Source: Gongronella butleri (Eukaryota; Mucoromycota; Mucoromycetes; Mucorales; Cunninghamellaceae). Taken from it: a stretch of DNA of 64,000 nt. The notes under the pieces were generated by a model, which was not told where the DNA came from, did not search any database, and saw nothing but the letters and a program-made list of their open reading frames with translations. Location: the NCBI GenBank assembly GCA_025201375.1, contig JAIWZP010000029.1, positions 310,001 through 374,000 of the forward strand, read 5' to 3'. Made by a program: the position numbers and the translations under genes. Positions 3,701-60,826 of this stretch are shown here, piece by piece; position 1 is the first letter of the stretch, and each line of letters begins with the position of its first letter.

Positions 3701-5797
3701 TCCGAGGGTCTTCGCACACTGTGTTACGCGGTGCGCGAGATCAGCCAAGAGGACTATGCGGCATGGGAACGCGTCTATGATGCTGCAGCAACCACGCTTA
3801 CCAATCGCGCCGACGCCCTTGATGAGGCGGCTGAAATGATTGAAAAGGACATGACGCTCATTGGCGCCACAGCCATTGAGGACAAGCTGCAAGACGGCGT
3901 CCCTGACACAATCCACACGTTGCACGAAGCTGGCATCAAGGTGTGGGTCCTGACGGGCGATCGCCAGGAAACAGCCATCAACATTGGCTACAGCTGCAAG
4001 CTCCTGACCGAGGACATGGAATTGATGATTTGTTCCACTGATGACCACGACACCGCACGCACAACACTCGAAAAAATGCTTGCCCAAATTCAAAATCATC
4101 CACAACACGAGGTAAAAAAAAGAAAAAAAAATCTCTCTCCTTGCCCAGGCTGCATTCAATTCGTTTTGACGGGGTTTTTTCTACTTTTTTTTCTATTTTA
4201 TTAGCCGCTCGCGTTCATCATTGACGGTAAGGCGCTGACATTTGCGCTTGAAAAAGACTTGGAGCGGCTGTTTTACGACATTGCTGTGCAATGCAAGGCG
4301 GTGATCTGCTGCCGCGTGTCGCCACTGCAAAAGGCGCTGGTGGTCAAGTTGGTGAAAAAGTTCACAAAGTCGATTTTGCTCGCCATTGGCGACGGTGCCA
4401 ATGACGTGTCGATGATTCAGGCTGCACACGTGGGTGTGGGCATCAGCGGCGTCGAGGGCCTGCAGGCCGCGCGCAGCGCCGACTTTGCCATCTCGCAATT
4501 CCGCTTTTTGAAGAAATTGCTGCTCGTTCACGGCGCGTGGGCGTACCAGCGCCTGTCCAAGATGATCTTTTACTATTTCTACAAAAATGTCACGCTCTAC
4601 CTCACCCAGTTTTGGTACGCCATCTTCAACGGGTTCTCGGGCCAGACACTGTACGAGTCATGGACCATGTCCTGCTTCAATGTCTTTTTTACCATCCTGC
4701 CACCACTCGCCATTGGCATTTTTGATCAATTCACAAGTGCGCGCCTGCTTGCAAAGTACCCGCAAATGTATATGCTCGGCCAAAGCAACGAATTCTTCAA
4801 CCAGAGCAGATTCTGGGGCTGGATTCTCAATGCCGTCTATCACTCAGCCGTAAGAAAATAGCTAAAAAAAAAAAAAAAATCGGAACCGATGGCATGGTTG
4901 ACTCACCAGCTTGCCCTGTTTTTGCAGATTCTCTACTTTATTGGCATGGCGGCGTTCATGAATGACGAGGTGTTTGCCAATGGCTGGGCCGGCGGCCAAT
5001 GGTGGGTGGGCACCACCATCTTTAGCGCGACACTCGCAACAATTCTGTGGAAAGGCGCCCTGATCACCGAGTAAGCAACACGATTTTTTATTCCCGGCGC
5101 GTCTCGCACATGTCTTGTGACCAGGCACGCGTGAAAACGCGCTTTTACACGCTATCAAGCGCGTTTCGACGCGCCACATACCCGTCAATCACCCATTGCG
5201 CAGCAACTAAGGCCTTTTTTTCTTTCTTTTTCTTTTTTTTTTTTTTTTTTTTTTTTTTTGCAGCATCTGGACAAAGTGGACATGGATTGCCATCCCGGGC
5301 TCCATGGTGATCTGGCTGGTGTTCCTGCCACTGGTGTCGTATGTCGGCCCCAAGCTGCCGTGGGGCATTTTCTTGGAATATGTTGGCATTGTTCCTGCCC
5401 TGTGGGGCAACCTCAATCACTGGCTGTTCTTCATCTTAGTGCCACTCGTCTGCTGCCTGCGCGACTATCTTTGGAAATAGTAAGTGGGACCAAGTGATCG
5501 CAAAAAAAAAAAAAAAATTGCTTTGCTTACGCCTGCTTCTGCTCCCCTCCCCCTTTTTTTTACACCAGCTACAAGCGCATGTATCGCGCCAACAGCTACC
5601 ATTACGTGCAGGAGATCCAGAAACTCAACTTGCCCGATTATCGTCCAAACATGGAGAAATTCCGCCAAGCCGCCATCAAGGTGCGCCGCATCCAGCGTCT
5701 AAAGACAATGCGCGGCTACGCGTTCTCTCAGAGCGACGACGGCCAGAGCAGAATCATCCGCATGTACGACACCTCGCAGAAAAAGCCAATTGGTTAG
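798..5797 (+). CDS. P4-type ATPase, Drs2/Dnf-like phospholipid flippase
   Basis: Thirteen exons: 798-849, 961-1469, 1546-1644, 1785-1990, 2148-2435, 2513-2630, 2708-2826, 2910-3618, 3692-4111, 4205-4849, 4928-5070, 5264-5479, 5569-5797. They sum to 1250 aa, a usual length for the family. Family role: ATP-driven movement of aminophospholipids from the outer to the cytosolic leaflet in trans-Golgi, endosome or plasma membrane. Visible signatures are the QQIPN segment in the first membrane hairpin, PISL in membrane helix 4, the phosphorylation motif DKTGT (Asp515) and the hinge motif GDGAND (902-907). Ten membrane segments are expected. The actuator motif reads DGEV (288-291) where most flippases have DGET; the catalytic Glu290 is kept. 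The long hydrophilic N-terminus is Q/H-rich. Identity as a P4-ATPase is certain; Drs2 versus Dnf class is not settled. Confidence 0.96.
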
Positions 5798-5973
5798 AGT
5801 CGACGCGAAAAAAAACACCATTTCCTCCCCTTTCATTTAGACGCCTTTGCTTCTCTCCTCCTATTGTGTACAATAATGAAAAATAGTGCTTCTTGTTGAT
5901 TTTGTACTTTTTTATTTGTGGAGCCTATATTGGCATTGGGCATTGGCAACCGTTGGTTTTTATTAGAAATGAT

Positions 5974-7456
5974 TCAATAGAAGCCCTGAAGGGGTCGTGG
6001 CGTGTACAGCTGCTCGAGATGGCTGACTTCTTCTTGTGTGAGCTTGATGGAGACCGCGGCAATGATATCGCGTAATTGCGACTCCTTGCTGATGCCGACA
6101 ATGGCCGATGTCATGTGTTTTTTGCTAAAGAGCCACGCAAGGGCGATCTTGAAAGAAAAAAAAATGGCCCGTTTGGGATCGTGCCAGACTCGTTCCATTG
6201 CTCTCACACAGCGTCATACCTGAGCCATTGGTAGGCCTCGTTCCTTGGCGACTCCTTCAAGACGATCAATGATTTCACGGTCGTTTTCCGTGAGATTTTG
6301 TACCCAGGGTCGATTTTTATCGGCGACAGCGCGCTCCGTCGCCTCCGATTGTTCATACGGACGCGCGAGCCGGCCCATGTCAAGTGGTGAATATGGCACC
6401 TGTATTGAACAGGGTGAGTCATTGTGCCCCCATTGTCTGTTTTTTCCTTGTTTTTTTTGTTGATTTGTACCTGTGCAATGCCTGCGTGCTGGAGATACGG
6501 GATCATTTCGCGTTCATCTTCACGATAGAGCAGGTTGTACATATCCTGCATCGCCACAAATGGCGTCCAGCCGTTCTTTTCCGCAATTGCGTTCATGCGC
6601 ACGAATTGCCATGTGTACATTGCCGACGCGCCAATGTAACGCACGCGTCCAGACTTGACAATGTCGTGCAGCGCCTCCATCGTCTCTTCCATGGGCGTGT
6701 TCTGCAAGAAACATGCAAAAAACAGAGCAATTGAGCACCCAAATGCCATGTGCAGCCGTGTTTCTTACATAGTCAAAGCGATGGATGTAAAAAAGATCAA
6801 CATAGTCCAGGTCGAGGCGCTCCAGGCTTCGCTCAACAGCCTGGAAAATGGCCTTGCGACTAAGCCCACTGGGGAGAAAACGCGAGAAATAACCGGATTC
6901 AGCCCCATTGTCTTTTTTTCAAAAAAAAATTCTTACCCGTTGTTAATGAGGCGCGGATCCGTGAGAGGCAGCGACATGGGCGCAATGGAAATGTCGTCAA
7001 AAACCGGCATGCAACACTTGGTTGCAATCACGAGACGTTGGCGCGGCAGATTAAATTTTTTGATGGCTTTGCCGACAATGCGTTCACTGAGCCCATTCGA
7101 GTACATATCGGCCCTGCCATCAAGAGAAAGAATGAAACGAAAAAAAAGGAAAAAAAAAAGAACATTCAATGATCCATTCTCACGATACTATGAATGGCCA
7201 TTTACGTGTCGATAAAGTTGATGCCGGCATCAAAGGCTGCTTTGATCAATTCAAGCGACTCGGCCTCGTCCTTCACCCAAGGGAGCCACTCAGGACTGCC
7301 AAAGCTCATGGCGCCAAGGCAAACCTTGCTCACCTACCAATGGCACAAAAAAAAAAAAAAAAAAAAAAGATAAATGCCATAAATGCCGCCCATCGCTTGT
7401 CATGAATTCTTTGTTTTTACCTGCATGCCAGTTTTACCGAGACGAGTATATTGCAT
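5974..7456 (-). CDS. Aldo/keto reductase, copy 1
   Basis: Seven exons on the minus strand: 7421-7456, 7206-7333, 6937-7113, 6769-6868, 6471-6701, 6220-6399, 5974-6147, giving 341 aa. This is an NAD(P)H-dependent aldo/keto reductase of the aryl-alcohol-dehydrogenase-like group, expected to be a cytosolic TIM barrel reducing aldehydes or ketones. The family tetrad is visible: Asp in FIDT, Tyr in ADMYSNG, Lys in IATKC, His in YIHRF. The C-terminal cofactor-binding stretch [12 protein letters not shown] is present. It converges on the flippase gene with only about 175 nt between stops. The neighbour at 8195-9630 is a close paralogue in the same orientation with fewer introns. Substrate unknown. 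Confidence 0.93.
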
Positions 7457-11085: not shown

Positions 11086-13843
11086 TTAGCCGCTGCAGCT
11101 GATGCAGGCGTCCTTGTTGTCGAGCGAGCAGACCATGTCGGCCTCGTTCTGTTCTTGCTTGCTGCGGGAATTGCGGTCCTTGAGTGACAGCTGGTCGACG
11201 GTGAACTTGATGGCGTCGACGGCGGGACGCGTGCGCAAATAGTACATGCCGGTCTTGAGGCCCTTTTTCCAGCCGTAGAAATGCATGGACGTCAGCTTGC
11301 CAAAGTTGGGCACGGCAATGAACACGTTGAGACTCTGTTCAGATTAACAAACAAGCGTCAATGGGCTGCTTTTTCTCGGTATTCACTCTTTTTTTTTAGA
11401 TGCTGTACCTGAGATTGGTCGATGAAAGCGCCACGGTCGGCAGCCATGTCGATAAGGGTGCGCTGGGAGATTTCCCAGACGGTCTTGTAGATAGCCTTGT
11501 AATCGTCTGGGATCTCGGGAATGTGCTGGACGGAGCCCGAGTCGGACATGATGCGATTCTTGATATCCTCATTCCAAATGCCGAGCTCGACGAGGTCCTT
11601 GAGAAGCCACGGGTTGACAATCTGGAACTCACCGGCGAGAACGCGGCGCGTGTACAAATTGGACTAATTGGGGGAGAAAGTAAGAAAAAAAGAAAAAAAG
11701 TCAGAAATGACTGTTTTCTGTGTATGAATTTCCCCCCAAAAAAAAACTCACAGTGTAGGGCTCGAAGCACTCATTGAAGCCGAGCATTTGCGACGTGGAG
11801 GCGGTGGGCATGGGGGCGACAAGCAATGAGTTGCGGACACCGTGCTGGGCGACCTGTTGCTTGAGAGTGGCCCAATCCCAAAGATCGGTGGGGGTCACGT
11901 TCCACATATCGTACTGGAAGATGCCCTTGGACACGGGGCTGCCTTCATAGGTCTCGTAGGGGCCTTGGACGCGGGCCAATTCCATGGATGTCTCCATGGC
12001 GGCGTGGTAAATGGTTTCAAAGATTTGAATGTTGAGCATCTTGGCTTCCTCCGAGTCGAATGGATAGCGCATGAGCATGAAGGTGTCAGCCAGGCCCTGG
12101 ATGCCCAAGCCAATGGGGCGGTGGCGAAGGTTGGATCGCTCGGCCTCAATGACGGGGTAATAATTGACATCGATGATCTTGTTCAAATTGCGCGTGATCA
12201 CCTTGACAACCTGATGCAATTTCTTGAAATCAAACGTCTTGCGGTTGACGACGTATGATGGCAACGCAATGCTGGCCAAGTTGCACACGGCAATCTCATC
12301 GGGGCTCGAGTATTCGACAATCTCCGTGCACAAATTGCTGCATTTGATGGTGCCGAGGTTCTGCTGGTTGGATTTGCGGTTGCACGCGTCCTTGTACAAG
12401 ATGAACGGATTGCCCGTCTCGGTCTGGGCCTCGAGAATCGCGTACCACAACTTTTGCGCCTTGATCGTCTGGCGCGCACGGCCCTCCTTTTCATACTTTT
12501 CAAACAAGGCCTCGAATTCATCGCCCCACACCTCGTGCAAATTGGGCGCCTCGTTCGGGCAAAAGAGCGACCAGTCGCCATTGGCCTCGACACGCTTCAT
12601 GAACAAATCAGGCACCCAGAGCGCGTAAAACAAATCGCGCGCGCGGATCTCGTCCTTGCCCACGTTCTTGCGCAATTCCAAAAAGGTGAAAATGTCGGCG
12701 TGCCAAGGCTCGAGGTACATGGCAAACGCACCGGGGCGCTTGTTCCCTCCTTGGTCAACGTAGCGCGCCGTGTTGTTGAACACGCGCAGCATAGGCAACA
12801 GACCATTGGCCGTGCCATTGGTGCCGGCAATGTACGAGCCCGTAGCGCGGATGTTGTGGATGTTCAAGCCAATGCCGCCGGCCGTCTTGGAGATTTGCGC
12901 ACAGCACTTGAGCGTCTCGTAGATGCCCTCAATCGAGTCCTCCTTCATAGTCAGCAAGAAGCACGACGACATTTGTGGGCGAGGCGTGCCGGCATTGAAC
13001 AACGTCGGGCTCGCGTGCGTGAAGAATCGCTCCGACATGAGCTGGTACGTCTCCAAAGCGGCATCAATGTCTTCGCCATGGATACCAACGGCCACACGCA
13101 TGATCAAATGCTGCGGACGCTCCGCCACCTTGCCATTGATCTTGAGCAAATATGACCGCTCGAGCGTCTTGAAACCAAAATAGTTGTAGCCAAAGTCACG
13201 ATCATAGATGATCGCCGAATTGAGCCTGTCAGCATTGGCCATCACCACCTTGTACGTCGTGTCAGAGATCATGGGCGCACGCTTGTTGTTCTTGGGGTTG
13301 GTATAGTGGTACAGATCATCAATCACCTGCGAAAACACCTTCTTTGTCTCCTTGTGCAGATTCGAAATCGCAATGCGCGCAGCAAGAATCGCATAGTCAG
13401 GATGCGTCGTCGTCATATACGCCGCCGTCTCCGCCGCAAGGTTATCAAGCTCCACCGTCGTCACACCTTGGTAAACGCCAGAAATCACCTACAAATAAAA
13501 AGACCGCGTCAGCCAAGGAACCCCACACACCATTGCCCAAAAACGAAAAAAAAACACAGCCATTGGCCCCCTGTTCTTTACCTTTTGCGTGATAGCCACG
13601 GGGTCCACATAGTTGGGATCAAGACCATAGCACAACTTGTTGAGACGGGCGGTAATCTACACACAAAAAAAAAAGAACCACGGTCAAAAGAGAAAAATAA
13701 AGAAAAAGAGCACAAAAGCTTACCTTGTCAAAAGCAACAGCCTCTTGACGGCCATCTGAGAGGGACATGAAGGGGACGTGTGAGTATGACGCCTTTTTTT
13801 TCGTTCTTGATTACTTACCTCGCTTATACACAAACATAGGCAT
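11086..13843 (-). CDS. RNR1: Ribonucleoside-diphosphate reductase, large subunit
   Basis: Six exons on the minus strand: 13819-13843, 13724-13755, 13582-13656, 11752-13488, 11409-11663, 11086-11334, giving 790 aa, typical of eukaryotic class Ia large subunits. It reduces NDPs to dNDPs together with the small radical subunit, in the cytosol. Seen in order: the N-terminal ATP-cone start ([15 protein letters not shown]), substrate and barrel motifs ([21 protein letters not shown]), the loop [19 protein letters not shown], and the C-terminal redox pair CISC (Cys785, Cys788) that reloads the active-site disulfide. The first ATG is used; a second ATG two codons on is an equally possible start. An ACGCGT box lies about 175 nt upstream. 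Confidence 0.97.
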
Positions 13844-14920
13844 TATGAAACAGAACCAGTGAAAGGGGAATCAAGCACAGGGAAAAGAAAAAAGAAGAAA
13901 AACAAGAGGGGTTTGGAGGGGGAGAAAAGGGGCGTGTCTGGAGGGAGAAACAGGGAAGAAAGAGAAATAAACAGAGCGGGCCCCGCGGCGGGCCTTTTAA
14001 ATGAAAAAAAAAAAAACGCGTCGCGCGCAAGAAGAAAGGATTTGGCTTCCCGCGCTCTGATTGGCCCGCACGCCAAAACAATGCTTCGCCACGACCTCGC
14101 GCTGAATAATCCTCGTGACGCGCCGACCAATTGTCACAAATCCACTTGAAAAGCGCCGCCACGCTAAAACATGTCGACCAGCCCATCTTCGTTGCAAGAC
14201 AATTGACGCATTCAATGCGAAAAGTAACATGTCCATCATCACCTGTCAATGGTGGGAGCTTTTTTCGCGCCCACCTCAAGAGCGATGCTATCAGTCACGC
14301 CCTCGTGAAAGTAGAAACAAAAAAAAAAAAAAAAAAAAAAAAAGAGACAATTGGTCATTGTTTTGTCCTTTTGCGTCTTGTTTTTGCTTGCTGCCAATTG
14401 ACAGGCGGTGGAAAAGAGGCCATCGTGGTGCACCAGAACGGTCGCTGCTAAGAGCTCACAGAGGCGGGGCACAGGCGTGTAAAAAAGTGGCCATGGTGAC
14501 ACGAAATGGCATCGTTTACCCTGTTGTGCTTTTTTATTTATATTTTACGCGCGTCAAATCGTCGTGCGCTTGCGCCCACGCTCCTGCTGAGCCACATCAC
14601 TGTTGACTGCGGCATACTTATTTTTTTTTCCTTTGGCGCGTCTCTCAAAAGGCAAACTTCCGACTTGGAATCTGCGCAATCGCAATTGATTTACAAAATG
14701 TCGTGTTTTCCCTATGTCCAGGCAGCAAATAGATTTCCAAACGAAGCAGCGCAAAGATGCAATCCAAGTGATTCACCCCTAGTTTGACGCTGGGGTGGAT
14801 TCAGATGAGCCAGACAAGAAATGAACATTTTTCGTCCGTTTTAAGCATACCATATACGCACACCGTTAAATTTTGAGATGATGTTTGAAACGCGTCCATT
14901 GAACGCGGCAAACACGGTCG
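13844..14920. other. RNR1 upstream region and spacer
   Basis: No gene was found. Next to the RNR1 start is a G/A-rich (C/T-rich on the coding strand) leader. Further out are a poly-A tract near 14320-14343 and several GACGCG-type motifs. The open frames overlapping here show no conserved protein. Confidence 0.5.
14016..14021. promoter_or_regulatory. MluI-box-like site (ACGCGT) upstream of RNR1
   Basis: An exact ACGCGT lies about 175 nt upstream of the RNR1 start and is followed at once by CGCGCG. In yeasts this hexamer is the MBF site that drives G1/S expression of RNR genes, so a role here would be expected. ACGCG-type motifs are common throughout this DNA, so position alone is weak evidence. 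Confidence 0.35.
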
Positions 14921-17900
14921 GCTGTTTCGCCTAGCCATTCATAATCACATATCTTTATCTCGTAATAAACGCACCCAGAGGCATACAGTCTATTCACAAT
15001 GAACATGCTCAGCGACATGCAGCCCATTCGCAGGCTCAAAAAAAAAAAAAGACGATGTCGAGACAATAGACGCACCAATCGCTATGGCACGCAAGAGCGC
15101 GCCCTTGGAGCTGCATCGACACATTCACTAGCAAAAGAAGTTCGAGGTGTATGGATTCGACTTGAAACGGACGCGCTTAAATCAAAGCCTGACGCGGTTT
15201 TTCACACGTCCAAGTTATCCTGCAAACAACCTGTTCGCGTCAATTCAGCCTGGATCTCGTTTTTCGAAGTGATCATCGATGGCCGCATACGTACGCAACA
15301 GCCCGTGCTCTTTCTTGTGAGCCGCGTTTCGAGGATCTGCGGTCAGTCTTTGTCGAGTTTGTTTTGTGGCGAAAATACAAAGTAGATTGCATTTTACAGG
15401 AGAACCAGTCGACGGAGCCCGAGGTTTTATGGCATTTTCATCGGCAAATGAAGAACGCATTCTACCATGTGGGTGAATGGCACGGCGATCCGAGGAACCA
15501 AGTTTTGCCAGGTTAAAATTCGTGACTGTACCCCTTGGAAAATCGATGGAAAATCGTCATTTTTGAAAATCGATGTGGCGCACCATCGAGTGCTTGCAGC
15601 TCCATGAAATTTTGGCATATGAGCATTTTGGTCTCTCTCTTTTCAGAACAATAGTAAAAACCGGGGGTTGATCTGACCGTTGGCAAGAAAATTGACAATG
15701 CTCCATAAATTCACAATTTTGTCTCTAGCTAGCGCGTCAAGCTGCTATTCGACCAGGCTTAAATCTTACAAGCGGAAAGACACGCACAAGGGGGTCATTT
15801 TATCCCTGCCCGACAACGCCGATGCGCAACATTTGTACGCTTGCAACGCCCAATCAAACATTTCAGCTTCGTTTTTCTCGGCAATGGACAAGACAAAGGA
15901 TGGACTGAGGATGGACTGCTGCTGTGATAATAAATGCAGAATTCGATTCTCTGTCGGATGAACCCAGTTTCACCAGCGTACGACCTAAAATTTGGCTTTG
16001 ATTGCCCATTCCTCGAAAACAGCTTGATCGACCCCCGATTTATTTTTATTGCACATTTGCTTAGAAGAAGGGGTCAATGCACCAAATGATATGACTCTCA
16101 GATGTCCAATTTGTAGGTTGCCAAACGGATTTGAGAGACCTGAGCCTCTCAAAGCGGGGGACCCTCCAGATGCATTTTGACCTGACCCACCTTGCTTTTT
16201 TTCTAAATTTGAAAAAAAATTTCGTCACCAAGGACTCATCGCAGCTCCACAACAAAACTTTTACATGTAGTGAATGTTGCTTCTCTCTTCTTCTCAGAAA
16301 AAAATATGATATAAACCCAAAGAAGGTCAATCATGTGGTTTGTCGGGAAGCATGGCATTGCTGAAAATTTGGCTGTAGCGCGTTTTTGTAAAATTCATTT
16401 CGCGGTAAAATCATGATTCGATCATCGCCAAACTTTGCCACTTGGCCTTTTCAGCGTCTCTCTTTAAAAGAAAAGTTAAAAAACTAGATGTTGTTGGTCG
16501 GGCCGTTTTTTCGTGGCATGCGCCGTTTTCAAGAATTGGCACAAATTCATGGATGACCACCAACACAAATCATGAATCGATTGCCTCCCAACTCCCAACC
16601 TTTGCCCTTTGACTATTTCGCCGCGCCTTATTCAACAACACAACATGGAACCCCAAGACTGACTGGATCATCGTTTTGCAGATGAATTCGAAGAAATTTC
16701 GACATTTTTACAAATGCAGAATTAAATGCCACAAATCATCATGGTTGGTGGGTGGCCCAAAATCTATACATAATGTTTTACCGAGCGACGCTATTATTAT
16801 GATACTCTTTTTGAAAAACAGTTCAAACCAGGAGTCGACCGAGTCATTGTGTAGATGAATCCAAAATTCTGACATTTCCGCAAATCCGGCACAAATCTCT
16901 CAAAATATTTTGTGGATCGCGGTGAAATGGCACCGATTGAAAGAGACGCACTCGGGTGTCATTTCCTAATTGTTTACTTGCCCGATGGATGAACTTTGCC
17001 CGCTTGCAAAAGTCGCTCAAACATTGGATCAATTTTCAAACTTGCTTTTCTCGACAACTGGAAAAATAACCAACGATGCTTTTAATACCGGTACCGTAAG
17101 TCAAATGCTGCTGCTGAATCTCCACCGAATGAAACAAGTTTCACGACGATCTGATCAAAACTGGCCGAGGAAATACACTTTTTCAACAAAAATTCAATGG
17201 CGATTTGCTCGACAACTATCTAGTCAACGCCCGATTTTTGTGTCATATTTAATAAAAAACGGAGGGGCAAAGCATCTACTGTAATGGAATGACTTGCAGG
17301 GCGCTAGCTTGGGTTTTAACTTTTTGCATCGGTCATTTCACCAGCTTGCAGCCCACCACTCTACAGCGCACAAAACCTGCAAAAAAAATACAATAAAAAA
17401 ATTCCATGCAGTTTGCGCACCTAAATTTGGAAGTGTCAAACCTTAAATTTTTGCAAAAAAATCTTGGCCAAAGTAGGCACTTTTCTCCAGTCGATCGGCG
17501 TTCATGCGTCACTCTTTGGGCATTTTTCTTAAAATTGGGGCGATCTGCCATTTTGTCTGCCAATAGCAAATCGTTGGATTTACCTGGTTGGGATGCATTG
17601 ATCACTCGGAGTTCGAAATTTCCCAAATTTGGCATTTTCTGAGATTGAAATGTGTGACCCTGAGTGACCCCTGAATTTTTCAAAAGTGGTCGTAGCGCTT
17701 TGGGGGATTAAGTTTTTTTGTTGCAAATTTTGCCCTGAATTCGACGCGGCTATTTTTGAGCGGGGTCGACCGTGCAGATGGACAGATGAATGCAAAATAG
17801 TAAAAATAAGAGGTTTTTGGCATTTTCGAGTCCAGAAAAAAATCGGGCGCGTCCGTCTTGAACACTGGGCTATAGCTTACTGTATTACGTCGTGACGCAG

Positions 17901-18030
17901 GTTTCATTGGCGGGCGAGTGGCCTGTAAAAAAATTTCTGGAGGCACAGCAGGCCGGCAAAGTCTGAAAAATACGTTCTTTGATTTTTAAAAGGTAAATGC
18001 GTACATTTTTGTGTAGTGTAGCTCAATGAT
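14921..18030 (+). repeat. Long copy A of dispersed repeat family R1
   Basis: This segment aligns over its whole length, with indels, to 56530-60250 in the same orientation. Examples are the shared left end (gctgtttcgcctagccattc against gctgttttgcctagccattc) and shared right parts around ttctggaggcac. Partial relatives lie near 28690-29350, 35290-35870, 45350-45870 (inverted) and 54990-55960. No long open frame survives. Within the copy, landmark strings recur about 1170-1190 nt apart (15807 and 16979; 15947 and 17117; 16036 and 17229), pointing to an older tandem structure. Two TACTGTA heptamers lie at 17277 and 17878. Nature unknown; decayed mobile DNA or a decayed gene family are both possible. 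Confidence 0.8.
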
Positions 18031-18852
18031 TCAAACAGATTAAAATTGACAGCACGCGTCAGTTTCTGTCTATGTGTCTAATGAGACCGAAACAACATGT
18101 ACAGATCAAGGCTTTGCTGTATTTGTGTGTAAAAAGCTAAAAACCCAAACAGATGAAAACCGTGCTTTTGTGCATTTTCTCGGGTGCTTGCTGAGATGCT
18201 GACTGTTTTTTTTTTACGCTTGCGGAAGCTCGAATATGTGATGAATATTGACAGGCAGACACCAGACAGAGTATGATAGTCAAGCCAGTATCATGTCTGC
18301 CAAACCAAAATCAAAATACCAGTTCTCAGAATCATTGCTTGCTCATTGCACACCAAGTCTCACCGGGATCTCTCTAATGTAAACATAGGCGCTCTTACAG
18401 TATCATACAGTAAGATACAGTACTATGTTTGGCCCTGATTCATTTGTGGTGACTCGCGCAGTGATACGTTAGGCCTTAGTCGCGTGCGCTACAGTATCAA
18501 GCATCTGCATGGGGCATGGCTATCACATGTACATTATGATATGTAGATCGCCTTGTTTTTCCAATGACCGGTTCGTGGCACGTTACAGAAATCGTAGCCC
18601 AAGATGAATTCTTTGCGATGGCACATTTTTAGATCGATCGAGTAGCTGGATGACGGAAAATGATTGATTTGTCTTTTATTAGACCAAAATAGGAGTGCCA
18701 CGTCAAAGAAAAGCGCTCTGTGTGCGATGCTTGTCAAGGGGCGTGGTATTGCCCAAAAAAAAAAGGGGGACCATGGGCGCGGCAGATGCAATACAACTTT
18801 TTTTTTTTTTTACTTGCAAGGAAAAACGGGTCTCTAAAGAATTTAACACATT
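18031..18852. other. Gene-free stretch with clustered TACAGTA heptamers
   Basis: No coding gene was found. TACAGTA occurs at 18396-18402, 18406-18412, 18416-18422 and 18490-18496. The rest is AT-rich single-copy-looking DNA and the 3' flank of the polyQ gene, including T runs near 18799-18811. Confidence 0.5.
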
Positions 18853-27856: not shown

Positions 27857-29817
27857 GCCTCAATGAACTATGCTTTTTCTTGTCACCAGCAGAGCAATGC
27901 CAGCGATGCAGATACCCACACCTTTTAAGCAAATGACAATAAAAAGCAGCAAAGCGAGCTCTTTTCTTTTTGGATGACCCGGGACGTGGACCACATATTG
28001 TTTCCTCTTGCATTAAGCCGACCGTAAATGAATTTAAAAGTTCACAGTGTATGTACAATAAAATCAATCAAATGTCGATTCAAAGCACAGCACTCCAATT
28101 CTGCGATTTTCTCCATGCCATGCGCGTCTCACGATCAGTAGACCTTGGCCGCTGGAAAGACACGCGCTCGAGCAACGTTTCTCATCCGCTTAGTTGTCCG
28201 CCTTTCCCGATCGGCGCACTGTTTACACTGGCGCGACGCGATCAAAGATTTCAAGTCTGATTTGCTCGGTGACGGACTCGACAAACCACGACTGCTGCTG
28301 TGACAAAAGACGCAGAATTTGATTGTCTGTCGAATGAAACCACATGCACAATTAGCTAAATAAATTGATTTGGGCAAATTCCACACAAAAACTTCATTTT
28401 TACAACCATTCATAATGTCGTTTGCGAATCATGTATTGTGACGCGCCAAAACGCGTCGCATGGTGATGGCGCAAGTGAAACACATCTCTGGGGCGCCGGA
28501 TGGCCACTGTACGTGCAACTGAAAAAAATCGTCGTCACGAGCCGCCGAAACCAAAATCGAAAAAACAGGTCTCCAGAATGGCATCAAACTTGCAAACAAG
28601 ATGCGCGGGACCGAGAAACGAGTGAAAATCGCAAAAAGAGACGCAGTCGATTAGTTCAATGACGAGCAATGCGCGATTTTAGGTTTAACTTTACGCGCGA
28701 ATTTCACTCGAAAAACGCGTCGCAAATACATTTCCGACGCGTCCACGAGCAGGAGAGGCCTCAGATGTCCGGATATCATGAGGACCAGACGCGTGTAACT
28801 GCACGTTTGACGCGCTTTATCGCGCGTCCAAGTTGACCCGCAAACAGACTGCTAGCGTTAATTCTGCCCGGAACGCGTGTTTTGCAGTGATCATCGATAC
28901 CCACATACGCAGCAGCCTGGGTTCTTTTTGATGGTCTCTGTTTCGTGGCTCTATGGCCAATTTTCGTCGACTTGCCCTTGAAGCGAAAAAAAGAGGCAAA
29001 TTCGATTTTACGCGGGAACCAGTCGATGCACCTCGGGTTTTTATTGCATTTCTGTTCGTTACTCGAGTGCGTTTCCTATGTGGTTTAATGGCGCGGCAAT
29101 CCAAGGACTTTGATTCTTCGATTTTCCGAGGGTCGACTGCACCCCTTGGAAAATCCGTGATTTTGGAAAATGGTCCTTGCGCGCCATCTAGTGATCGCAA
29201 TGCCGCGGGGCCGGGCTCATTTGAAGCGGAAATCCTTGAACTATTGCTTCGCGGTGCAGATATCCTTGCAGGTTGCCATTTGATCGACAAACGACCAAAA
29301 TGCGACGAAAAAATTCAATTCGTGATATTCTCAACAAATCCACCTAACTGATCATCATTTTCCATGGCACAGCATGCGACAAGCAGAGGCGCAAAACGTC
29401 TACAGTAGCTTGGGCGCACATGTATAGCTCGATCCGTATCAAGCAATACATTACTGTATGATAAAATACAAAAAAAAGCGCCAATCCGACGCTGCCTGCG
29501 CCACAGCCTTTCTTTCGTCGCTGTCATGTTTGAACCGCTTGCGCATGCATTCCACAAAGTTTGGGGCCACTTAGTCTGCACCAAGCGAAGATAAGATCGG
29601 AAAACTGAATTTGTTCGTACTTTTTGTGGAGGAACAAGACCAAACTTCAATTCATTCACGAATAGTGTTTTGAGGTCTTGTCAATTTATGACATTTTCTT
29701 TATTAAATAGGAAGGGTTGCATGTTTACAAGATGTAGAATATGTATATTGAATATATACGAGCGGAAAAAGGGGAAAACTTAAAGAATGGGATGGGGTGA
29801 GCAGGGGCGGGAACAAC
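27857..29817. other. Gene-free island with R1 fragment and GACGCG motifs
   Basis: No gene was found apart from the possible extra exon of the preceding gene at 27890-27928. GACGCG/CGCGTC-type motifs are frequent at 28430-28830. An R1 fragment occupies about 28690-29350. TACAGTA lies at 29401-29407 and TACTGTA at 29452-29458. The right end is the 3' flank of the syntaxin gene. Confidence 0.5.
28690..29350 (+). repeat. Partial copy D of repeat family R1 (5' part)
   Basis: It matches the 15180-15650 part of copy A at several points: the cgcgtccaag region, gtgatcatcgat, the gaaccagtcgatgcacc string and the motif around ccccttggaaaatc. It is diverged and has no open frame of note. Confidence 0.65.
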
Positions 29818-34936: not shown

Positions 34937-36917
34937 GTGATTGAAAAATAAAAAAAAATACGGGGAAGAAATGGGGAAAATGGCGCACTTGCAAGAGCTC
35001 GCCCACCATGAGTTTATTTCTGCCTCCGCGCTGCGCTGCGCCATCCGTCCTACAAGCCGTTTAAACAAAATCTCGTTTTTGCCCCAATGTCAGAGTTGGG
35101 TCGCGCTCAATCTTTGCTATTTGGCTTGCTCAGCGACCTTCTTTTCAGAAAAAAAAAAAAAAAAAGTAAAAACTAGAGGTTAATCAGGCGTTGTCGAGAC
35201 ATGCACCGATTTCACGAATTTTCCCAAATCCAATGCTGACCACTGCAAATCACGGCTGGAGCACCTCCAAGTGTTGCAAGTTGTCTATTTCGGCGGGTCT
35301 CTTTTCAACAAGACGTTAAAAACCAGGGTTCGACTTGATTGTTGGGCAGATGAATTCAAAATGGCAATTTTTCACAGATCTAGCGCTAGTTCTCCAACTT
35401 GTTCTTGAGTTGCTGTGAAACTATCATATCATAGCATCATTTGAACGAAACGCGCTCGTGTGTCATTTTTGGAATATTTGCTTGCCCGATGGATGACCTT
35501 TGCGCACTCCAAAAAACCGATCAAACATTTGTGTCATTTTCAATCTTGATTTGCTGAACAACGGCCTCAACTACAAGCATTGCAATGAGCCATTTTTGAG
35601 CAGGATCGGCCAAGCAGATGGCGTGCTACTGTAATTGCAAAACAGGACAAATTTGGATATTTTGGAATTTGCAAGTTCAAAAAAAAAAATCGGGCGGACC
35701 CATCTCGCGCACAGGCTGTAGTTTGGCCCGTGACGCGACATTTACAGTATCGGCGGGCGAGTTGGCTGTAAAAAAATTTCTGGAGGAACAACAATCCAGC
35801 AAAATCCGAACAACAACGCGTCTTTTCGTTTCAAAAGGCAAATGTGCATCTTTCTGTGCAGTGAAACGCGCTTTTGCAAGCATTGAAATGACAATGAGCA
35901 CACTGTATTCATATTCTGGCCATTGAGCTTCATCACGGCAGGAAAAGTGTGCAAAACGCGACGAAATCAGTTTTATTATCGAAACATGTCCTATTTCCTT
36001 GTGTATTTTAGAAATCACAGCAGAGCATTGATGCAAACGCCATACATAGTTAAGGGTACAGTATGATAAAAGCTTAAAGCTCGACACGATGCGCTTTGCG
36101 CAAAGAAATATAAAGTGGTGTGCGTGGCTGGAACGATGAATTCGCGAGAAAAACGGGGCAAGTGCACAAAAACTCAAAATACGACCTCTTTTAACCCAAG
36201 TTTTTACAGTATCATAGGTTGCTACAAGAGGGGGCAACACTGATATCGAAAGGATTAAACTGGCGCATTACGTATGCCTGATGCAGTCTTTCAAGCCCAC
36301 AACCTGATCAAAACCACATTTTCTTTACGCGAGTTGTTGTTCGCTCTTTTTTTTTTTTTGCTCTACTTTATACGTACAATTTGCGAGATCATCAAATATT
36401 CTAAAGATACGGCTGCCGACACATTTTCGCTCGATTTCTCCATGTTTTTCTTTCATGATATTGCCAATTGAAATGTTGTGGGCTTGCCGCGTCATGATGT
36501 GTCGCGCTGGATCGCAAATTAGACGGAACGCGAATCATAAAAGTCAATGGATCGACAGGCGTGACCAATGGGCAGTGGCCGACGCGGGCCGATGATGGAT
36601 TTGGAAGGTGCGGTCGGGGATTCCTTTTTCATTTTTTTTTTCAGGCACGTACACACATGCCAGAATGAATTAATCTTCAGAGAAAAGAGCGGACCCAAAA
36701 GTCCAGATCGTCCCTGGATGTAACGTGGCACCAAAGTCAGGAACGACAGAGCGAAAAAATAAGTAGTACAAGTGTTTTAATCGAAAAAAGGAATTAAGCG
36801 ATAGGTTGTGTAGCAAAAAATAAGTAGAAACAGAGGGTTTGTGGAATCAAGGCAGAAATAAGGGTGGGAAGGTGTACCTCAGCTAACTCATTCAGTCCAT
36901 GGGGGAGGGGAAGGGGC
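34937..36917. other. Gene-free island with R1 fragment and TACAGTA heptamers
   Basis: No gene was found. It holds an R1 fragment (about 35290-35870) and TACTGTA/TACAGTA at 35627, 35743, 36057 and 36205. An A tract lies near 35148-35164. From about 36250 to 36900 the sequence appears single-copy and holds nothing I could identify; its right end is the 3' flank of the LIM gene. Confidence 0.5.
35290..35870 (+). repeat. Partial copy C of repeat family R1 (3' part)
   Basis: It shares the header ttaaaaaccagggttcgac, the string gcccgatggatgacctttg, and the 3' block around ttctggagg with copies A and B. It carries a TACTGTA at 35627 where copy B has plain TA in a similar flank (60003). Confidence 0.65.
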
Positions 36918-55960: not shown

Positions 55961-56529
55961 CACAGACTCCAAATTTGCACCATCTATGCAAAGTAGATTT
56001 TTGAGTGAGTTGAGAAGTTTTTTTTTTTTGTCTCCATCGATCCCTTCACGTTGTGTCCTTCATTGCATGTTTATAATTGGCCTTTAAGCCCATGTTCCAA
56101 AACTGACGAGAGGAAGCCAGTTGCGCGTCGCTCGCTGAAAAAAAATTCATTATATCAACCCGTACATTTTGCACGCACCGGGCACCGCCATCGTGCTCGT
56201 CGAAAAAAAAAAAAAAAAAAAAGGGGGGGGCCAAGTTTCTGTTCAAATTGAAGAAGCGGCGTGCATCGGGCAAGTTTATTTTTTGTGTCTTTTTCTCTTT
56301 ATTTATTTTGATTGCAATGGTTAAGCATCTTGACAATTTGGGGGACGAGTTTATGTTAAATCGAATCGTTAAAGAGAGACAAATTGAAATAAAAGAAAGG
56401 GGACAAGAAAGAAAAAGGGGAAGACGAGAAACAAAGCCCCGCCGTGCTCACTTTAAATTATTATAAAGGAACACCGCCTTTTATGGGCGGCACTTTTACG
56501 GTTGGCACCTCGTTTCTTTTTTTTTTTGG
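55961..56529. other. Spacer between R1 copies
   Basis: No gene was found. It holds a poly-A run (about 56204-56222) followed by G, and a purine-rich stretch to about 56440. The open frames here show no conserved protein. Confidence 0.5.
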
Positions 56530-59500
56530 CTGTTTTGCCTAGCCATTCATAATCACATATCTTTATCTCGCAATAAACGCACCCAGAGGCATACAGTCTA
56601 TTCACAATGAACATGCCCAGTGACATGCAGCCCATTCGCAGGCTCAAAAAAAAGACGATGTCGAGACAATAGACGCGCCAATCGCTATGACACGCAAGAG
56701 CGTGTCCTTGGAGCTGCATCGACACATTCACTAGCAAAAGAAGTTCGAGGTGTATGTATTCGACTTTAAACGGACGCGCTTGCTTAAATCAAAGTCTGAC
56801 GCGGTTTTTCACACGTCCAAGTTATCCTGCAAACAATCTGTTCGCGTCATTTCTGCCTGGATCTCGTTTTTTGAAGTGATCATCGATGGCCACATATGCA
56901 GCAGCTCGTGCTCTTTGTTGTGAGCCGCATTTTGAGGATCTGCGGCCAGTCTTCGTCGAGTTTGTCCTGTGGCGAAAATACGAAGTACAGTAGATTGCAT
57001 TTTACAGGAGATCTTGTCGATGGAGCCCGGGGTTTTCTGGCATTTTATCGGCAAATGGACGCATTCTACCATGTGGGTGAATGGCACGGCGATCCGAGGA
57101 ACCAATTTTTACCAGGTTAAAATTCGTGACTGTACCCCTTGGAAAATCGATGTGGCTCGCTCATCATCGAGTGCTTGCAGCTCCATGAAATTTTGGCATA
57201 TGAGCATTTTTGGTCTCACTCTTTTCAGAACAATACAGTAGTAAAAACCGGGGTTGATCTGACCGTTGGCAAGACAATTGACAATGCTCCTTAAATTCAC
57301 AATTTTGTCTCTAGCGCGTCAAGCTGCTATTACAGTATTCGACCAGGCTTAAATCTTACAAGTGGAAAGACACGCACAAGGGGGTCATTTTATCCCTGCC
57401 CGGCAACGCCGATGCGCAACATTTGTACGCTTGCAACGCCCAATCAAACATTTCAGTTTCGTTTTTCTCGGCAATGGACAAGACAAAGGATGGCGTGCTG
57501 CTGTGACAATACTATAAATGCAGAATTCGATTCTCTGACGGATGAACCCAGTTTCACCAGCGTATGATGACCAAAAGTGATGCAGAAATTCCATTTTCTA
57601 AAACTTGGCTTTGATTACAGTACTACCCATTCCTTGAAAACAGCTTGATCGACCCTCGATTTTTATTGCAGATTTGCTTAGGAAGAAGGGGTCAATGCAC
57701 CAAATGATATGACTCTCAGATTTCCACCAATGTGTAGGTTGTTGCCAAACTGATTTGAGAGACCTGAGCCTCTCAAAGCGGGGGACCCTCCAGATGCATT
57801 TTGACCTGACCCACCTTTTTTTTCTAAATTTGAAAAAAAAGATTTCGTCACCAAGGACTCATCGCAGCTCCACGAAACTTTTACATGTAGTGGACGTTGC
57901 TCCTCTCTTCTCAGAAAAGTAAAAATCCAAAGGTCAATCATCATGTGGTTTGTCGGGAAGCACGGCATTGCTGAAAATTTGGTGATACAGTAATACTGTA
58001 GCGCGTTTTTGTCAAATTCATTTCGCAGTTCTAAAATCATGATTCGATCATCGCCAAACCTTGCCACTTGGCGTTTTCAGCATCTCTCTTTGAAAGAAAA
58101 ATTAAAAAACCAGATGTTGATCGGGCCGTTTTCGTGGCATGCGCCGTTTTCAAGAATTGCTTGGCACAAATTCATGGATGACCAACACAAATCATGAATC
58201 GATTGCCTCCCAACCTTTGCCCTTTGACTATTTCTTCGCCGCGCATTATTCATCAACAACACAAGCAACATGAAACCCCAAGATCGACTGGATCATTTTG
58301 CAGATGAATTCGAAGAAATACAGTAATCTTCTCGTCGATATTTTTACAAACGCAGAAGAATTAAATGCCACAAAAAAACATCATGGTTGGGTCGCCCAAA
58401 ATCTACACATAATGTTTTACTGTACTGACGCGACTCTTTTTGGAAAACCGTTCAAACCACGAGTCGACCGAGTCATTCATTGTGCAGATGAATCCAAAAT
58501 TCTGACATATCCACAAATAAATCCGCCGGCACGAGTCTCTCAAAATATTTTGTGCATCGGGTGAAATGGCACCGATCGAAAGAGACGCACTCGGGTGTCA
58601 TTTCCTGATTGTTTGCTTGCCCGATGGATGAACTTTGCCCGCTTGCAAAAGTAGATCAAACATTAATTGGATCAATGTTCAAGCTTGCTTTTCTCGACAA
58701 CTGGAAAAATAACCAGCGATGCTTTTAATAATGTATCAAATGCTGCTGCTAAATCTCCACCGAATGAAACAAGTTTCACGGCGGTCTGATCAAAACAACT
58801 GGCTGAGGAAATATACTTTTCAACAAAAAATTCAATGACGATTTGCTCGACAACTGTCTAGTCAACCCCCGATTTTTATTTCAGATTTAATAATACTGTA
58901 ATAAGAAACATGGGGCAAAGCATCTAATGGGATGACTTGCAGGGCGCTAACTTGGGTTTTAACTTTTTGCATCGGTCATTTCTTCACCAGCTTGCTGCAA
59001 CCCACTCTACTACTACAGCGCACAAAACCGCGTACGTTGAATTTTCCGGGATCAAATACCCCCCGACCCCAGCTACACCCAGGTTTTGGCCAATCACGAT
59101 GAAGCTGCAAATGGCGTTTTATATGTTTTCAAGGGCGTATAAACTCATGGCGGTGTTTAAATTACGTGTCCATTTGCTGGGTTTTGAGTACTTAGAGATT
59201 TGGCTCAAATGCTGCGGTTTGCTCTAATGGAAGTACCTCAAAACCTGCTTAAATCGCCATTTTGTCACACGAATTCGATGTAAAATTTAATTTAGAATCG
59301 AATAAAGTTCTCACACGATGTCCGTTAACTTAGTAAAATTTCGAGATAATCGCAATTTACGACATTTTGGCCGATTTTGATTTTTGGCGGTAAATGTGCG
59401 ATTTTTTCACGTTTTTATTAAGAGAGCATGGCTCGAGCGAAAGTAACACCATTCGATTCCAAATCAAATTTTACATTCAGGGGCGTCGCGTTGTAGCCTC

Positions 59501-60250
59501 TAAGTGCACTTCCTGGGCGTCTAGCAAGAGATTAAAACGTCTTTACCAGTCAAGTATTTGATCCCGGAAAATTCAACATAGGCGCACAAAACCTGCAAAA
59601 TAAATACAGTACAATAAAAAAATTCCATGCAATTTACGCACCTAAATTCGGAAGTGCCAAACCTTAAATTTATGTAAAATCTTGCCCAAAGTAGGCACTT
59701 TTCTCCAGTCGATCGCCGTTCATGCGTCACTCTTTGGGCATTTTCTTAAAGTTGGGGCGATCTGCCATTTTGTCTGCCAATAGCAAATCGTTGGATTTAC
59801 CTGGTTGGGATGCATTGATCACTCGGAGTTCGAATTTTCCCAAGTTTGGCATTTTCTGAGATTGAAATGTGTGACCCTGAGTGACTCCTGAATTTTCAAA
59901 AGTGCTCGTAGCGCTTTGGGGGTTTAAGCATTTTTGTTGCAGTTTTTGCGCTGAATGCGATGCGGCTATTTTTGAACGGGGTCGACCATGCAGATGGCGA
60001 GATAAATGCAAAATAGGACCAATTTGGATTTTTTTGGAATTTAGGGGTTTAAAAAAATCGGGAGGACCCATCATGCTCACACGCTGTTGTTCATGTCGTG
60101 ACGCGTCCTTCATCCGCGGCCAGCCACGCTGTAAAAAAAATTCTGGAGGCACAATATGATAGGCCGGCAATAATGCGGCAAAGTCTGAAAATTACGGTCT
60201 TTGCTTGCTCTTTGGTTTTTAAAGATAAATTTGTACGTTTTTATGCAGTA
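56530..60250 (+). repeat. Long copy B of repeat family R1
   Basis: The partner of 14921-18030 in the same orientation, alignable from end to end with many small indels and one larger block without counterpart (roughly 59030-59560). It carries TACAGTA at 56986, 57234, 57331, 57616, 57986, 58319 and 59605; TACTGTA at 57994, 58418 and 58894; and a TACTATA variant at 57510. Several of these correspond to a plain TA in copy A. No open frame of substance. Confidence 0.82.
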
Positions 60251-60826
60251 CGTGTACGGAGAGACGGTGGTGATGAAGAACTTGCTTGTTTATTTTTTTA
60301 CTGTAAAATGCCTAAATGCGTATCATGATGATCAATTTTTCAGAGAGTTATTAGAGCTTAGAGACTCGTTCATGTTTCTTTTTGAAGCATCAAAAATTCA
60401 AAGGATGATGTGCTCATGTGCATCATTCACTGGTGGGATTGCACACTGTTCACGGCGATTGTGGCATTTGCATGAGAATAGAAATGAAAAATGATCAAAA
60501 CGCGACCAAAAAAACTGGGTTTCTTTCTTTGCTACAGTATGATAGTCAAATTTCCCTGAAGCACCGTGCAGCTTCGAAGAACGCGATACATAATTATGCA
60601 GCTAATAATCACTGCTGCGGGCAGTGGCGTACGCCGTCAAGAGTGATGTCAAGCGGAAAGCGCAATTACAGTAGAAAGGTGTGTTTGGCACTGCGCACAG
60701 GCGCGCCACGGTGCCTGAAGCGGGCTTTAATTATGCGCAGAGCTCGAAAAGGAAAGTGATATGAATGGCGGGTTCATGCGTGAGTCATCCGACAGTTTTT
60801 CGTCCTTCTTTTTTCTTCCTCTCTTA
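60251..60826. other. Spacer between R1 copy B and NAD kinase
   Basis: No gene was found. TACTGTA lies at 60299-60305 and TACAGTA at 60533-60539 and 60667-60673. The last 60 nt are the T/C-rich leader of the NAD kinase. An in-frame upstream ATG at 60761 exists, but the encoded stretch is low-complexity. Confidence 0.55.

Follow-up and report, generated by a model that had tools for sequence, protein, structure and literature searches.

The 64,000-nucleotide stretch of the Gongronella butleri genome analysed here, referred to as the window (assembly GCA_025201375.1, contig JAIWZP010000029.1, positions 310,001 to 374,000 of the forward strand), contains two copies of a repeat, R1, which were delimited by self-alignment: copy A at 14920..18030 (about 3.1 kb) and copy B at 56528..60153, both on the plus strand. 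A 501-bp piece of copy B has 41 matches in the 33.0-Mb genome (110 contigs), itself counted, i.e., R1 is a repeat family. The longest reading frame in copy B spans 147 amino acids; Pfam gave no match for the eight frames of this copy that were tested, and Rfam gave none for the window. Outside R1, a ribonucleotide reductase frame is found on the minus strand (11701-13488; 88% identity to Rhizopus and Absidia proteins). The features of interest are heptamers, here called scars, in which CAG/CTG, TGA/TCA or CCG/CGG stands between two TA dinucleotides; CAG and CTG are jointly written CWG. The window contains 51 scar heptamers, five within copy A and ten within copy B, and none is located in its seven frames of at least 300 amino acids (8.4 kb together). 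If the 36 heptamers outside R1 were independent, the chance of this absence would be about 0.003, a rough value since scars cluster.

A base-by-base check and an alignment of copies A and B show that a plain TA in one copy repeatedly corresponds to a scar in the other (all positions are given on the plus strand). TACAGTA at 56986..56992, 57234..57240 and 59605..59611 in copy B is found where copy A has TA at 15383, 15652 and 17389, respectively, and TACTGTA at 17277..17283 in copy A is found where copy B has TA at 58925. The TACTATA at 57510..57516, opposite TA at 15931, is probably a TACTGTA scar with one mutation, because ATACTG precedes the same TA in at least one other R1 sequence. These four clean pairs and the variant are as described in an earlier note on this DNA; the sixth pair that it listed, TACTGTA at 35627..35633 in a diverged third copy with its counterpart TA at 60003, is also present, but with flanks that are clearly less alike. 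Other copies, taken from stretches of the same genome that carry L-numbers (L016 is R1 copy A), may display yet another scar at the same TA: L012 has TACTGTA at the site of 57234 (alignment column 1007) and L027 has TATGATA at the site of 17277 (alignment column 6773). Copy B contains seven more TACWGTA heptamers (at 57331, 57616, 57986, 57994, 58319, 58418 and 58894). Six of these lie where copy B carries 8 to 14 extra bp compared with copy A, not in clean 5-bp insertions, e.g., TACAGTA at 57331..57337 and at 57616..57622 (each an 8-bp difference) and at 58319..58325 (within a longer insertion); at 58418 copy B is no longer than copy A.

Insertions were counted in 210 pairwise alignments of 21 R1 copies from this one genome, several of them partial, i.e., copy B of the window and 20 genome stretches. 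At least 9 of 12 bases had to be identical in each flank, gaps with bases on both sides were excluded, and an insertion common to several copies was counted once per copy. Among the 2,148 distinct insertions that passed, 227, 277, 164, 100, 69 and 23 were 2, 3, 4, 5, 6 and 7 bp long, respectively, and those that duplicated a TA numbered 0, 12, 14, 46, 5 and 0 in the same order. The inserted triplet was CAG in 16, CTG in 12, TGA in 6, TCA in 5, CCG in 2 and CGG in 1 of the 46 TA-duplicating 5-bp insertions (42 of 46), in line with the predicted excess of TACAGTA and TACTGTA; the remaining four triplets, CTA, CAA, CCA and TCG (once each), are all by inspection a single base off a scar class. These insertions have the form of a transposon footprint, where the TA target is duplicated with a few terminal bases between the two copies. 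At 10 bp, 7 of 42 insertions duplicate TA, and all seven are scar pairs, e.g., TATGATATCATA and TACGGTACTGTA. Changed middle bases make up 4 of 138 (about 3%) in the 46 insertions, compared to a divergence of 5-9% between copy B and the other copies; this rough comparison suggests that the scars accumulated over much of the history of R1.

The R1 copies also show pairs of filled and empty, and of scarred and empty, states of the same TA. Three TA-flanked elements are located within R1 copies: two CAG-ended miniature inverted-repeat transposable elements (MITEs), of 473 bp in L009 and 166 bp in L024, and, in L018, a Tc1-like element whose ends are CCG. The 473-bp MITE, TA-CAGTAGAGTACCGC...GCGGTACTCTACTG-TA, occupies the TA that is empty in copy B at 58859..58860. 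When TA-flanked insertions were sought for which an exact empty site exists elsewhere, 57 candidate pairs emerged, two of which, both TA-CAG...CTG-TA MITEs, had a full 10/10 inverted-repeat match. After collapsing, the R1 scars comprised 97 heptamer loci on 74 alignment sites; four of these sites are the ends of the two MITEs, which leaves 93 loci on 70 sites. A bare TA is found in at least one other copy at 41 of the 70 sites, and at nine sites the scar on one and the same TA differs between copies. The association with empty sites was further examined in a 244-kb sample composed of the window and 19 R1-bearing stretches, i.e., not a random sample of the genome. With 643 of its 644 TANNNTA heptamers (one was too close to an end), a related empty site was found for 104 of 366 heptamers of the scar classes as compared to 18 of 277 in the other TANNNTA classes (Fisher p 3e-13), the former divided into 72 of 214 for CAG/CTG, 25 of 125 for TGA/TCA and 7 of 27 for CCG/CGG.

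In the whole genome (both strands), TACAGTA/TACTGTA are found 16,213 times, TATGATA/TATCATA 9,529 times and TACCGTA/TACGGTA 1,999 times, compared to 554 occurrences of the anagram control TAGACTA/TAGTCTA. Reversed patterns were also counted (ATGACAT 6,355 vs TACAGTA 16,213; ATAGTAT 1,031 vs TATGATA 9,529; ATCAGAT 3,872 vs TAGACTA 554), and were judged to be a poor yardstick because these words have no TA at their start or end. The anagram was therefore used for the CAG/CTG and TGA/TCA counts, while the excess of the third class is based on the 244-kb sample rather than on a genome-wide control (TACCGTA 14 and TACGGTA 13 vs about 2.5 each expected). The same sample holds 113 TACTGTA and 101 TACAGTA where about 2.5 each are expected from dinucleotides. 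Here, TA-N3-TA is the sole outstanding TA-TA spacing (644 vs 304-385 for spacers of 0-2 and 4-12 bases), and nearly all of the excess is found in spacers of the form N-x-N', where N' is complementary to N (429 vs 68 expected; all others 215 vs 193), which is what three-base overhangs that pair at all but the middle position would produce. The genome-wide density of CWG heptamers is 491 per Mb; for scale, the mouse genome, if its size is taken as 2.7 Gb, has about 111 per Mb. The mouse value corresponds to more than 300,000 CWG heptamers, a count given in PMC4378557.

We interpret the heptamers as footprints of cut-and-paste transposons of the IS630-Tc1-mariner/pogo group, from several families and throughout the genome, with a probability of roughly 0.92. 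The 5-bp class, its base composition, elements with matching ends, and filled, scarred and empty TAs among the R1 copies were observed directly; that the elements now present, rather than lost relatives, made the scars is what we infer. With Sleeping Beauty, two footprint outcomes arise from 3-base overhangs with a central mismatch. If the same holds in G. butleri, an element would insert at TA, thereby duplicating it, and excision would leave three bases of each end as 3' overhangs that would pair at the outer bases (C-G or T-A) and mismatch at the middle base. Depending on the ends, repair of this mismatch would yield CAG or CTG (CAG/CTG ends), CCG or CGG (CCG ends) or TGA or TCA (TGA/TCA ends). 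The site would thereby grow by five bases and hold two TAs, each of them open to a new hit. This overhang rule should hold for any N-x-N' end, such that the confinement of nearly all of the excess to that form provides an independent check from the genome. The earlier note had ascribed a swarm of Tc1/mariner scars to one CAG-ended transposon. Of the outcomes that it named as refuting, a missing CAG/CTG excess and a lack of CAG-ended elements, neither applies within this genome. Elements with CAG ends do exist in the genome (Tc1-like, pogo-like and the two MITEs), but several families can contribute (Tc1-like with CAG, CTG or CCG ends, pogo-like with CAG ends, and MITEs). The footprint reading is supported and widened to several families and the whole genome, and the swarm is larger than first described, with a second large class, TGA/TCA, that had gone unnoticed.

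Elements with matching terminal bases were found for both the CAG/CTG and the CCG/CGG scar classes. The transposase family PF13358 matched 74 stretches genome-wide, which belong to several families, some with near-identical copies. The Tc1-like families of the DD34E type end in TA-CAG, TA-CTG and TA-CCG, with the end sequences TA-CAGTGACC (L052), TA-CAGTGCCC (L009, L057/L058), TA-CCGTGGCTCTC (L018, L048) and TA-CCGTACCC (L044, L047, L055/L056). Another Tc1-like family, with a 336-amino-acid transposase, has the end TA-CTGGATTTGTCC (one end only was read); six copies of this family, each in a different flank, share 99.8-100% identity over the stretches compared. All three transposases examined have DDE_3 with DD34E spacing in frames without a stop codon, and HTH_Tnp_Tc3_2 is present in two of the three, being absent from the 336-amino-acid one. 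The element in L049 is pogo-like in its structure (2.9 kb, TA-CAGTAGGTTCTGG ends, i.e., CAG, a DDE_1 transposase and TA flanks). Only three DDE_1 matches exist genome-wide, all of which contain one or more internal stop codons and have HTH_Tnp_Tc5 beside them; judged from their ends only, the two MITEs appear to be related to pogo. For mariner-type transposases (PF01359) no match was found, but control genomes likewise gave none, and we therefore make no statement on these. The element in L046 has CAC ends, which fall outside the N-x-N' rule, and CAC/GTG scars are without clear excess in the 244 kb (5 vs 2.4 and 5 vs 2.6).

Twelve two-ended elements were tabulated because TA-flanked inverted repeats were visible; they are examples of such termini rather than a test, which is provided independently by the exact empty sites of the two MITEs. 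Outside this table are L045 (TC at one end), L050 (a changed end) and L059/L060 (an irregular right end), as well as L029/L030/L035, L031-L034, L042, L043, L051 and L053/L054, where one or no end was recognised.

A number of observations weigh against the footprint interpretation or against its simplest form. The overall distribution of insertion lengths has no peak at 5 bp, which appears only in the TA-duplicating class. Neither of the two MITE sites is scarred in any other aligned R1 copy, and no TA was seen in all three states. Furthermore, 16 of the 70 R1 scar sites fall mostly in gaps, and at 13 of the 70 the aligned sequence lacks a TA in ten or more of the other copies; 12 of these 13 were inspected, and in nine the other copies have a dinucleotide one base off TA, such that a point mutation must have made the TA before the hit, while three are unclear. 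Taken literally, the reversed-pattern control ATGCCAT (9,577 vs 1,999 for TACCGTA) speaks against a TACCGTA excess, and a few classes outside the N-x-N' form are mildly raised (e.g., CTA, 8 vs 1.3 in 244 kb). The method is also blind to excisions that deleted bases. An inverted-repeat scan, repeated TA-plus-12-mers, large insertions between R1 copies and the empty-site search, in about 320 kb (about 1% of the genome), yielded no convincing element with TGA or TCA ends, even though this is the second largest scar class; a family of tens of copies could well escape notice in 1% of the genome. Finally, six of the 12 tabulated elements are immediately bordered by CWG scars at both ends (12 of 12 flanks), a pattern not accounted for by random hitting. 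A scar adjoins a given side of 4.6% of TAs, and in the other six elements 1 of 12 flanks is scarred.

As candidates for TGA/TCA elements, the inverted pairs starting with these triplets near 764-1778 in L009 were rejected since they lie within one larger inverted repeat, others being scar runs, and TATCAGCCCGGACA was rejected since it is found only beside R1 copies. The best lead is a 97-bp imperfect inverted repeat in L020 (1747-1845), TA-TCATATTAATTACG...TCTAATTAATATGA-TA, which has TCA ends and scars inside, and is possibly a TCA-ended MITE; it is present as a single copy in 325 kb, without an empty site.

If each site is left with two TAs, each of which can be hit again, stacked scars would be expected. 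In the window, three stacked scars, TACAG-TATCA-TACAG-TA, are found at 18396..18412, and two stacked scars at 29452..29463 (TACTGTATGATA), 35422..35433 (TATCATATCATA), 36057..36068 and 60533..60544 (both TACAGTATGATA) and 36205..36216 (TACAGTATCATA), all on the plus strand. In the 244 kb, 299 runs were counted: 254 are single scars, 32 are double and 7 are triple, with five runs of four scars and one of eight; the longer runs mix classes. Separate rows for CWG-only and TSA-only runs were set aside, as mixed runs distort them. A second hit is seen in 15.2% of cases, compared to a local hit rate of 12.5% for any TA (p 0.095), i.e., a general preference for already scarred TAs is not significant in this sample, and stacking in general needs no special mechanism; the run of eight suggests hot spots. 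Runs could also arise at a short tandem repeat, where TACAG/TACTG units are gained and lost by replication slippage, and some stacked runs are indeed nearly uniform, e.g., four TACAG followed by TACTG in L051. We consider this explanation very unlikely because most runs are single units, the longer ones mix CAG, CTG, TGA, TCA, CCG and CGG, the unit at a given TA differs between copies, and a first hit is followed by further units at about the rate at which TAs nearby are hit. A related word, TACGTA, occurs 56 times in the 244 kb, where 10.9 are expected, and is also found within scar runs; it may be a two-base CG scar of yet another family.

Two further explanations would account for the heptamers without excision. 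They might be the terminal bases of many inserted elements, because pogo-like ends read TACAGTAG, the pogo-like and MITE ends begin TACAGTAGA or TACAGTAGG, and, among the 97 R1 scar loci of the initial count, 4 proved to be such ends. Yet GA or GG follows TACAGTA in only 28 of 321 tabulated cases, chance included, the flanks share no end sequence, and the 5-bp insertion test is independent of this objection, which makes this origin extremely improbable for the heptamers as a group. Conserved protein-binding or regulatory motifs would be consistent with near-palindromic sequences that are found genome-wide and are absent from the seven long frames of the window. Many of the heptamers, however, are private to a single copy, the TA being bare in a relative: an empty relative together with no second copy having the same heptamer was found for 57 of 214 CAG/CTG and 25 of 125 TGA/TCA heptamers, and there is thus hardly any likelihood that conservation of a motif explains them.

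Returning to excision footprints, the scarred flanks of the six elements invite a more speculative reading. These elements have the ends CAGTGCCC (twice), CAGTGACC (once) and CCGTACCC (three times), a grouping made post hoc. Apart from these six, L046 has two scars that end at the TA just before its own TA. Every scar flanking the six is CWG, including those next to elements with CCG ends, which on excision would themselves have left CCG/CGG; either the elements landed between scars or the end sequence is longer than assumed. It is conceivable, albeit doubtful, that cycles of insertion and excision turn one TA into two, that some Tc1-like families (those with the three ends above) prefer a TA between two CWG scars, such that excision builds their own landing strips, and that the TGA/TCA scars are perhaps the sole remains of a family gone from the genome.

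Several other insertions and repeats were noted. In the window, a segment of about 550 bp in copy B (59029-59580) with imperfect inverted ends, GTTGAATTTTCC...GGAAAATTCAAC, is missing or mostly missing in copy A and in the other copies that align there. The R1 copy in L023 carries a 617-bp insertion (about 5484-6098) with a 6-bp duplication, AGATTG, and the ends TGTCAGGCGCACGCG...CCTGACA; its end sequence recurs in the transposase locus L029 near 510, and it is of a different transposon type. An element of 240-260 bp, AAAGGCGATCGG...GACCGTCCTCC, is found in two R1 copies (L012 5274-5534 and L019 3845-4089); in L012 it is accompanied by a duplicated AAAG. A 2.35-kb stretch with a 337-amino-acid DDE_3 frame (L031, L032) is 96.8% identical between two contigs; it has local tandem repeats and no clear TA-flanked inverted repeats, and may represent a segmental copy rather than a transposon.

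Excision is usually invisible in a single genome, and the scars thus record past jumping that would otherwise be hidden. In this respect the R1 family acts as a witness, where bare, filled and scarred TAs allow natural end sequences and repair outcomes to be counted without experiments. The clean outcomes obey one rule (three bases, N-x-N') across several families; how frequently repair is clean is a separate matter, as base-deleting excisions are uncounted. The scars also predict transposon families not yet seen (TGA/TCA), and because excision multiplies TA targets, as the stacked scars show, feedback through target sites becomes testable.

This type of trace is already known. Such a density and stacking of scars from several families within one natural genome did not appear among the results listed by literature searches, viewed mostly as titles and abstract openings, which included no natural genome-wide scar swarm with stacked runs. 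Among the closest likenesses is Sleeping Beauty, a reconstructed Tc1-like element of fish, which shares the TA target and the CAG or CTG between two TAs; its footprint is TAC(A/T)GTA with a net gain of 5 bp, as stated in PMC3432063 and PMC4378557. That system is engineered and its footprints are counted per tumour (estimated actual numbers of 153, 139 and 8 in three tumours, PMC4378557), whereas G. butleri has about 16,000 natural CWG heptamers in 33 Mb, several families, stacked scars, and the TGA/TCA and CCG/CGG classes. Fungal Tc1-like DD34E elements have the same DDE_3, DD34E spacing and TA beside inverted repeats, but a 342-amino-acid transposase is only 41% identical to a Parasitella parasitica protein, the first organism-named among the 120 matches listed, while proteins without an organism name in these matches are 71-85% identical. 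Pogo/Tigger-like elements and MITEs are alike in DDE_1, HTH_Tnp_Tc5, CAG ends and TA flanks, with the difference that the few DDE_1 matches in G. butleri all contain stop codons. In rice, exactly two target copies remained after only 8 of 94 excisions (PMC4423477). Natural footprints of TA-targeting MITEs, with repeated gain and loss at one site, are described for Stowaway in Triticeae genes in PMC1925063. There, a single gene intron has several footprint shapes derived from short end fragments, whereas in G. butleri thousands of heptamers display one strict three-base form in excess.

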